DNA from: Thalassotalea sp.
Lineage (GTDB): Bacteria; Pseudomonadota; Gammaproteobacteria; Enterobacterales; Alteromonadaceae
DNA: 64,000 nt
Reading direction: 5' to 3'
NCBI GenBank assembly: GCA_029237915.1
Contig: JAQWHD010000025.1
Location: 1 to 64,000, forward strand
Shown: piece after piece, positions 47,414-48,235 of the stretch
How the letters are laid out: each line of letters opens with the position of its first letter
How positions within the stretch are numbered: position 1 is the stretch's first letter
The notes under the pieces: generated by a model
The model's database searches: none
What the model was told of the DNA's origin: nothing
The model's input: the letters and a program-made list of their open reading frames with translations, nothing else
Program-made: the position numbers and the translations under genes

Positions 47414-47419
47414 GCGCCC

Positions 47420-47816
47420 GAGTTGGCCAGACAATCGCTGCTTAATCGTTGTATCTGATGCGCAAGTTGAAGATAGACAGATTGAGGGGAGGAAAGTCCG
47501 GGCTCCATTGAGCAGGGTGCCAGGTAACACCTGGGCGGCGCAAGCCGACGACAAGTGCAGCAGAGAGAAGACCGCCGATGGTTATTCTTCGGAATTTCAC
47601 AGGTAAGGCTGAAAGGGTGCGGTAAGAGCGCACCGGGCGGCTGGTAACAGTTCGCAGCAGGGTAAACTCCACCCGGAGCAAGACCAAATAGGGTTCCATT
47701 AGGCGTGGCTCGCGTTGGAACCGGGTAGGTTGCTTGAGCTATGGAGCGATCCATAGCCTAGACGAATGATTGTCGCCTCGCAAGAGGTAACAGAACCCGG
47801 CTTATACGGCCAACTC
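47420..47816 (+). ncRNA. rnpB: RNase P RNA (bacterial type A)
   Basis: Catalytic RNA that removes 5' leaders of tRNA precursors. About 397 bases. The universally conserved pieces are present in order: GAGGAAAGTCCGGGCTCC, GTGCCAGGTAAC, GCCGATGG, GAAAGGGTGCGGTAAGAG, CACCCGGAGCAAG and CCAAATAGGG, then GAACCCGGCTTA. P1 pairs GAGTTGGCC (5' end) with GGCCAACTC (3' end). The stem at about 47736-47758 (CTATGG/CCATAG) and the small GCAA-capped stem CCTC/GAGG near 47776-47787 lie in the 3' half. The gene is between rsmI/GST and the dcw side, a common place in Alteromonadales. Confidence 0.98.
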
Positions 47817-47826
47817 ATCAAATAAT

Positions 47827-47862
47827 AAACCCCAGCTAATTAACGTTAGCTGGGGTTTTTCT
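47827..47862 (+). terminator. Terminator of rnpB
   Basis: AACCCCAGCTAA - TTAACG - TTAGCTGGGGTT, followed by Ts. A complete stem; the duplicate downstream carries one mismatch in it. Confidence 0.93.
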
Positions 47863-47887
47863 TTACCATAACTTTGAAAATAATAAT

Positions 47888-47939
47888 CGTCATTCCATCA
47901 TGCTTTTGGATGGAACCTCATGCAGTTTACACTGCATTA
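47888..47939 (+). repeat. REP-like palindromic element, copy B
   Basis: CGTCATTCCATCATGC start, stem TTCCATC/GATGGAA, then a TGCAGT-TTAC-ACTGCA hairpin at 47921-47936. The right end of the rnpB duplication (47925) falls inside this second hairpin. Confidence 0.7.
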
Positions 47940-47946
47940 GAAAAAT

Positions 47947-48235
47947 AACATTTCACAGCAGGGGTGCTAACATACTGGCCACCCGGAGCAAGACCAAATA
48001 GGGTTCCGTACGGCGTGGCTCGCGTTGGAACCGGGTAGGTTGCTTGAGCATGTGAGCGATTGCATGCCTAGACGAATGATTGTCGCTTCTTCGGAAGTAA
48101 CAGAACCCGGCTTATACGGCCAACTCAACAAATAATAAACCCCAGCTAATTAACGTTAACTGGGGTTTTTCTTTACCATAACTTTGAAAATAATAACCGT
48201 CATTCCATCATGCTTTTGGATGGAACCTCATGCAG
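47947..48235 (+). pseudogene. Duplicated 3' half of rnpB with its terminator
   Basis: A 257-bp ungapped copy of 47669-47925 lies at 47979-48235 (offset 310), and weaker similarity (AACA-TTC-CAGCAGGG) extends left to 47947 across a short insertion. It holds the last ~148 bases of rnpB, the terminator and REP copy C. It lacks the 5' half, hence P1, P2 and the core strands, so it cannot be RNase P RNA alone. Differences cluster in two stems and keep pairing: CTATGG/CCATAG becomes GCATG/CATGC, and CCTC-GCAA-GAGG becomes CTTC-TTCG-GAAG. No promoter is evident. Confidence 0.88.

Follow-up and report, generated by a model that had tools for sequence, protein, structure and literature searches.

A partial copy of the RNase P RNA gene downstream of rnpB in Thalassotalea sp., probably an eroding duplicate with hairpins of other rnpB alleles

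Tandem repeats that begin within the RNase P RNA gene occur in Escherichia coli K-12 MG1655, where 113-bp units, present in 3.5 copies with 96% matches, lie behind rnpB and cover the last 23 nt of the gene; an older E. coli literature reportedly deals with these 113-bp repeats. Repeated genes are also known to undergo concerted evolution by gene conversion, and integrative elements restore the 3' end of the RNA gene that serves as their attachment site, as they do at tRNA and tmRNA genes. Titles and available passages of the open-licence literature contained no description of copies such as the one reported here or of gene conversion in bacterial rnpB, and the available passages of PMC2996960, PMC3053259, PMC8776855 and PMC2516327 had no bearing on such copies.

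In the window, by which we mean the whole 64,000-nt stretch of Thalassotalea sp. DNA analyzed here, rnpB is followed by head-to-tail repeats that, as in E. coli K-12, start in the 3' end of the gene and continue downstream. The unit measures 257 bp instead of 113 bp and, unlike that of E. coli, takes in several complete stems within its 148 nt of rnpB and has hairpin alleles that differ from those of the gene. As in concerted evolution, in several genomes the gene and its copy resemble each other in flanks and stems, which differ between species, but here the pattern is patchy, some segments being homogenized and others matching the rnpB of other species, and it is from this pattern that we infer the process. 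The arrangement at rnpB of one relative (G013) is like that left by integrative elements, whereas the window's genome has no integrase of that type and the leader of its copy is not an island end. Such an arrangement is known in kind; what is new about it is the half-gene length together with the alleles stored. The features of the locus are as follows, with helices (P1, P7/P8, P15 to P19 and others) named according to the usual RNase P scheme.

47419..47821, + strand: rnpB, RNase P RNA class A, full length (RF00010, 314.9 bits)
47827..47858, + strand: rnpB terminator (repeat comparison, terminator scan)
47888..47925, no strand: REP-like element behind rnpB (many similar stretches in own genome; limits by eye)
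47954..47978, + strand: leader of the copy, probably derived from P7/P8; GGGTG at 47962-47966 can pair with CACCC at 47980-47984 (sequence)
47979..48126, + strand: incomplete copy of the 3' half of rnpB, from P15 through the 3' strand of P1 (RF00010, repeat, alignment)
48002..48030, + strand: P16/P17 block of the copy, 3 differences from 47692-47720 (repeat comparison)
48049..48066, + strand: P18 of the copy, 9 differences from 47739-47756, matches G007 rnpB (allele comparison)
48086..48097, + strand: P19 of the copy, 6 differences from 47776-47787, matches G003 and G004 rnpB (allele comparison)
48137..48168, + strand: terminator of the copy, one unpaired change (repeat comparison)
48198..48235, no strand: REP-like element ending the repeat (repeat, own-genome matches; limits by eye)

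The direct repeat (47669-47925 versus 47979-48235) aligned over 257 nt without gaps, at a spacing of 310 and with 92% identity, and each unit consists of 148 nt of rnpB, the terminator, a spacer and the REP-like element, which bears out the repeat given in a preliminary description of the locus. That description had the right extent for the repeat but not for the copy, which begins about 25 nt earlier with the leader (47954-47978) outside the ungapped repeat. When the own genome was searched with the repeat, nearly all of the 44 matches were to the REP part. The two units differ at 21 of the 257 positions, and the differences are strongly clustered, with 18 in the 59 nt of three rnpB hairpin blocks and only 3 in the other 198 nt (Fisher p 2.5e-10). 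The P16/P17 block has three differences in 29 nt (CCATTAGG in rnpB, CCGTACGG in the copy), the P18 block nine in 18 nt, with six outer pairs intact in the versions of both gene and copy, and the P19 block six in 12 nt, with four outer pairs intact in both and a loop of either GCAA or TTCG. The preliminary description had correctly placed differences in two stems, here P18 and P19, and seen that both stay paired, but it did not list the P16/P17 block; it had also reported an unpaired change in the copy's terminator, which we find as G at 47849 in rnpB and A at 48159 in the copy. Comparing the non-hairpin rnpB part of the repeat (0 differences in 89 nt) with the terminator, spacer and REP-like element (3 in 109) gave no significant sign of purifying selection on the copy (p 0.25).

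Each of the hairpin versions carried by the copy was found in the rnpB of some relative. Its P18, CATGTGAGCGATTGCATG, is that of G007 (Thalassotalea sp. ND16A, Colwelliaceae), its P19, CTTCTTCGGAAG, is that of both G003 and G004, and CCGTACGG is present in G004, G008, G010, G011 and G014. The earlier proposal of a divergent donor allele, to be checked by looking for the second stem versions in related rnpB genes, is largely supported, both the P18 and the P19 version having been found; none of 16 rnpB genes (that of G012 being cut off there) combined all three versions. Over 148 nt, the copy differs at 8 positions from rnpB of G004 and at 18 from its own, and every one of its letters is present at its column in at least one of 15 rnpB genes, own included and G012 left out. 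The second copy of G010 behaves similarly, with 4/158 differences to G006 rnpB versus 21/158 to its own. Nearest to their own rnpB are the copies of G004 (6/148), G005 (18/124) and G009 (17/123), the first copy of G010 (1/148) and that of G015, the last yet distant (54/180). The G007 copy is distant from all rnpB genes (best 17/65), and that of G012, whose own rnpB was outside the comparison set, differs at 5/54 from rnpB of four other genomes. Letters private to a copy number 0 in G000, 4 in G004, 1 and 3 in the two G010 copies and 3 in G012, and 16, 16, 17 and 32 in G005, G007, G009 and G015, respectively. Among the rnpB genes of the genus (L039-L055), combinations of P3, P12, P17, P18 and P19 across species depart from the species tree, and the P12 stretch of G000, the window's genome, equals that of G003.

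We compared 21 flanks of 70 nt each, taken behind the P1 strand. The two flanks of the window are 0.96 alike, and likeness within genomes was 0.86 in G005, 0.84 in G009, 1.00 and 0.86 in G010 and 0.74 in G015, while in G004 the flank of the own copy was not among the best four matches. Between genomes, the best value was 0.74, except for the G004 copy versus G003 rnpB (0.87). Judged by these alignments, the units of the window share a recent flank and have hairpins as unlike as those of different species, and near-identical flanks together with species-level differences in P16 to P19 imply that either the gene's unit or the copy's is a mosaic. A tract spanning at least 47698-47786, or its partner, must then have a separate history. 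As to the direction of exchange, a tree of rsmI and the malic enzyme gene, the latter in the tree for only 10 of the 15 genomes, joined G000 with G013 at a support of 1.00, but the 5' part of the window's rnpB is nearest to that of G003 (11/252, versus 25/252 for G013) and its 3' half is nearest to that of G010 (7/148, versus 15/148 for G013). This suggests that the window's rnpB itself acquired foreign stretches, in which case the earlier state may be the one kept in the copy. Part of these rnpB distances could also come from the rapid change of hairpins.

Second rnpB pieces were sought with BLAST and by inspection of the regions in a genus set of 15 genomes that includes G000. They were present in 10 of the other 14 genomes, being tandem or truncated in eight and located beside integrated islands in two. 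Copies with leader and 3' end occur in G000, G004 and G010; G004 and G010, each a single contig, have the locus arranged like that of the window. Erosion is seen elsewhere, with only the 5' part of the copy left in G007 and G012 (in the latter at a contig start, its linkage to rnpB not being shown by the contig) and only the 3' part left in G005 and G009. Behind rnpB, G001 (L039) and G014 (L054) have just short tail-and-terminator tandem repeats, spaced by about 120 bp in G001, in a layout resembling that of E. coli K-12. The second 3' half lies on another contig in G011 and at the far end of the island in G013. In G002, G003, G006 and G008, no copy was detected by BLAST or by eye within about 1 kb, the inspected stretch of G002 containing a short GCGGTGGCTCGCGT stretch. 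G015, which belongs to another genus, has a long, decayed copy. An RF00010 search of 97 genomes, run with strict filters by which weak pieces may be lost, gave second matches in G000, G004, G010 (two), G011, G013 and G015. As to carriage by phages or plasmids, one exact pattern found no stretch in viral contigs, and rnpB-like DNA at 60-80% identity was present in 3 phage-collection and 20 plasmid-collection records, many of them chromosome-sized. Two plasmid-collection records, NZ_CP109732.1 (90,865 bp) and NZ_CP035936.1 (177,151 bp), from Enterobacter and Acinetobacter, respectively, contain rnpB-like 3' sequence.

The copy does not amount to a complete RNase P core, the 5' strands of P1 to P4 and the specificity domain being absent from its sequence and its RF00010 alignment. 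The second RF00010 match of the window (47906-48127) scored 89.2 bits against a gathering score of 100, so that the copy stays under the family threshold, and we excluded the model-aligned 5' end before about 47954, which looks forced by the full-length model. Upstream of the repeat, the copy reads CAGCAGGGGTGCTAACATACTGG and then CCACCC where rnpB has CAGCAGGGTAAACTCCACCC, and this leader restores a GGGTG/CACCC helix in the copy. Similar leaders precede the copies of G004, G007, G010 (two), G012 and G015. The part of the leader behind GCAGGG aligns to P7/P8 of rnpB, with a shuffle p of 0.0095 in the window and of 0.019, 0.027, 0.029, 0.075 and 0.12 in five other genomes, whereas comparison with the whole rnpB 5' part was at chance (p 0.23 in the window, 0.23-0.89 across genomes). 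We rejected a wholly new hairpin on the basis of the P7/P8 alignment, which is significant only when the comparison is confined there; the leader probably derives from P7/P8. Reading the deletion from the leader, the copy would be a piece of rnpB lacking the 5' arm, with the specificity domain deleted. A leader pattern matched 4 of 395 family genomes (G000, G004, G007 and G015); the leaders of G010 and G012 escape this pattern and came to light by other means. In a wider collection of genome contigs, it matched 83 stretches (L089-L171), two of which, L160 and L170, have the rnpB 3' half; these are records of G015 and G007 and not extra genomes. The other 81, by title from unrelated taxa, were taken as chance.

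Two relatives have islands at rnpB. In G013 (C35:77724-103492; L052, L053, L172, L173), a gene for a 457-aa tyrosine integrase (PF00589) lies directly behind rnpB, and about 25 kb separate rnpB from a second 3' half that matches it at all 148 nt. The G013 rnpB appears to be the attachment site of an integrative element that carries its own 3' half. In G011, a shortened related integrase frame (C75:1157-1792; L049, L225; 74% over 211 residues) is next to rnpB, and a separate contig (C48:81192-81335; L050) carries a 3' half that differs at 5/149 positions. The island ends of G011 and G013 have common motifs by eye.

These observations bear on several readings of the copy. It could be the scar of an integrative element whose attachment site was the 3' half of rnpB and whose later loss left the displaced 3' half behind, as the integrase gene and distant second 3' half of G013, sister of the window's species, and the related arrangement in G011 would allow. 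The shared leader, however, is missing from the two island ends, where the sequence is a different one, the ends of the G013 and G011 elements were not seen by eye at the copy, and the integrase was detected at E 1e-60 in 3 of 295 family genomes (G013, G011 and the distant G279) and not in that of the window, making such a scar quite improbable. A plain recent tandem duplication followed by drift, or an assembly artefact, might be suspected from the mere 3/109 differences in terminator, spacer and REP-like element and from a draft genome of 71 contigs; yet the hairpin clustering excludes evenly spread drift and G004 and G010, each a single contig, show similar arrangements, and we consider this the most improbable of the readings. 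Alternatively, the copy might be an independent small RNA that descends from RNase P RNA and is maintained by selection, for instance as a decoy or assembly regulator, with the leader hairpin substituting for the lost partner of CACCC. The leader helix before the copies of G000, G004, G007, G010 (two), G012 and G015 and the intact stems of the window's copy are in line with this, as is the fold of 47954-48172 (z -2.0; 4 of 200 shuffles were equally stable), a stability to which the terminator hairpin contributes. On the other hand, the minimum-energy fold differs from the RNase P arrangement, promoter-like sites are at chance (4 found versus 2.5 expected), four genomes have truncated copies and four have none that we found, and stems are broken in several long copies (P16 with 4/6 paired in the G004 copy and the second G010 copy; P18 with 4/6 and P16 with 5/6 in G015). 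Of the two terminators, a scan of the + strand listed only the one of rnpB. We regard a selected small RNA as unlikely.

In our view the copy is likely to be a partial duplicate of rnpB that is old and eroding and has been patched by gene conversion or allele exchange, a separate working RNA not being evidenced. The marks of such exchange, namely, clustered differences, variants present in other working alleles and alike flanks, were all found; that the process was gene conversion or allele replacement, and that the copy lacks function, is what we infer. First, part of rnpB would long ago have been duplicated in tandem, the duplicate lacking the 5' arm and having lost the specificity domain, and short-tract recombination, either between gene and copy or with rnpB alleles of related species, would later have repeatedly overwritten parts of both. 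The copy would in this way keep hairpins that are, or at some time were, functional in a genuine rnpB, and its stems would be paired because they come from working alleles and not because of RNA-level selection on the copy. The preliminary description had set recombination bounded by the REP element against simple duplication. Such a boundary is unneeded, as the copies of G004, G007, G010 and G015 start 20-50 nt behind a terminator with no REP between by eye, and the two processes would be successive rather than exclusive. Counted against overwriting are the lack of any one rnpB gene with all three hairpin versions, the unlike flanks of G004 and the value of 0.74 in G015, by which homogenization is not general, and the fact that rnpB hairpins change fast between species anyway; counted against a relic are the mostly paired stems of the full-length copies and the fold z of -2.0, which a working RNA would give too. 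Going beyond an overwritten duplicate, the downstream copies could act as silent cassettes that store old or foreign hairpins and return them to rnpB by gene conversion; reshuffling of the rnpB 3' half in the genus would then be similar to that of surface proteins by silent gene cassettes, a role that we hold to be rather unlikely.

The repeat is real, mostly explained and of moderate evolutionary interest. Paired stems in a partial copy of an RNA gene are by themselves no proof of function, since overwriting by working alleles yields the same pattern. The copies hold hairpin versions missing from the adjoining gene and are thus a natural record of change in an essential single-copy ribozyme. 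If they return hairpins to rnpB, it would become possible to test a route by which an essential catalytic RNA diversifies.
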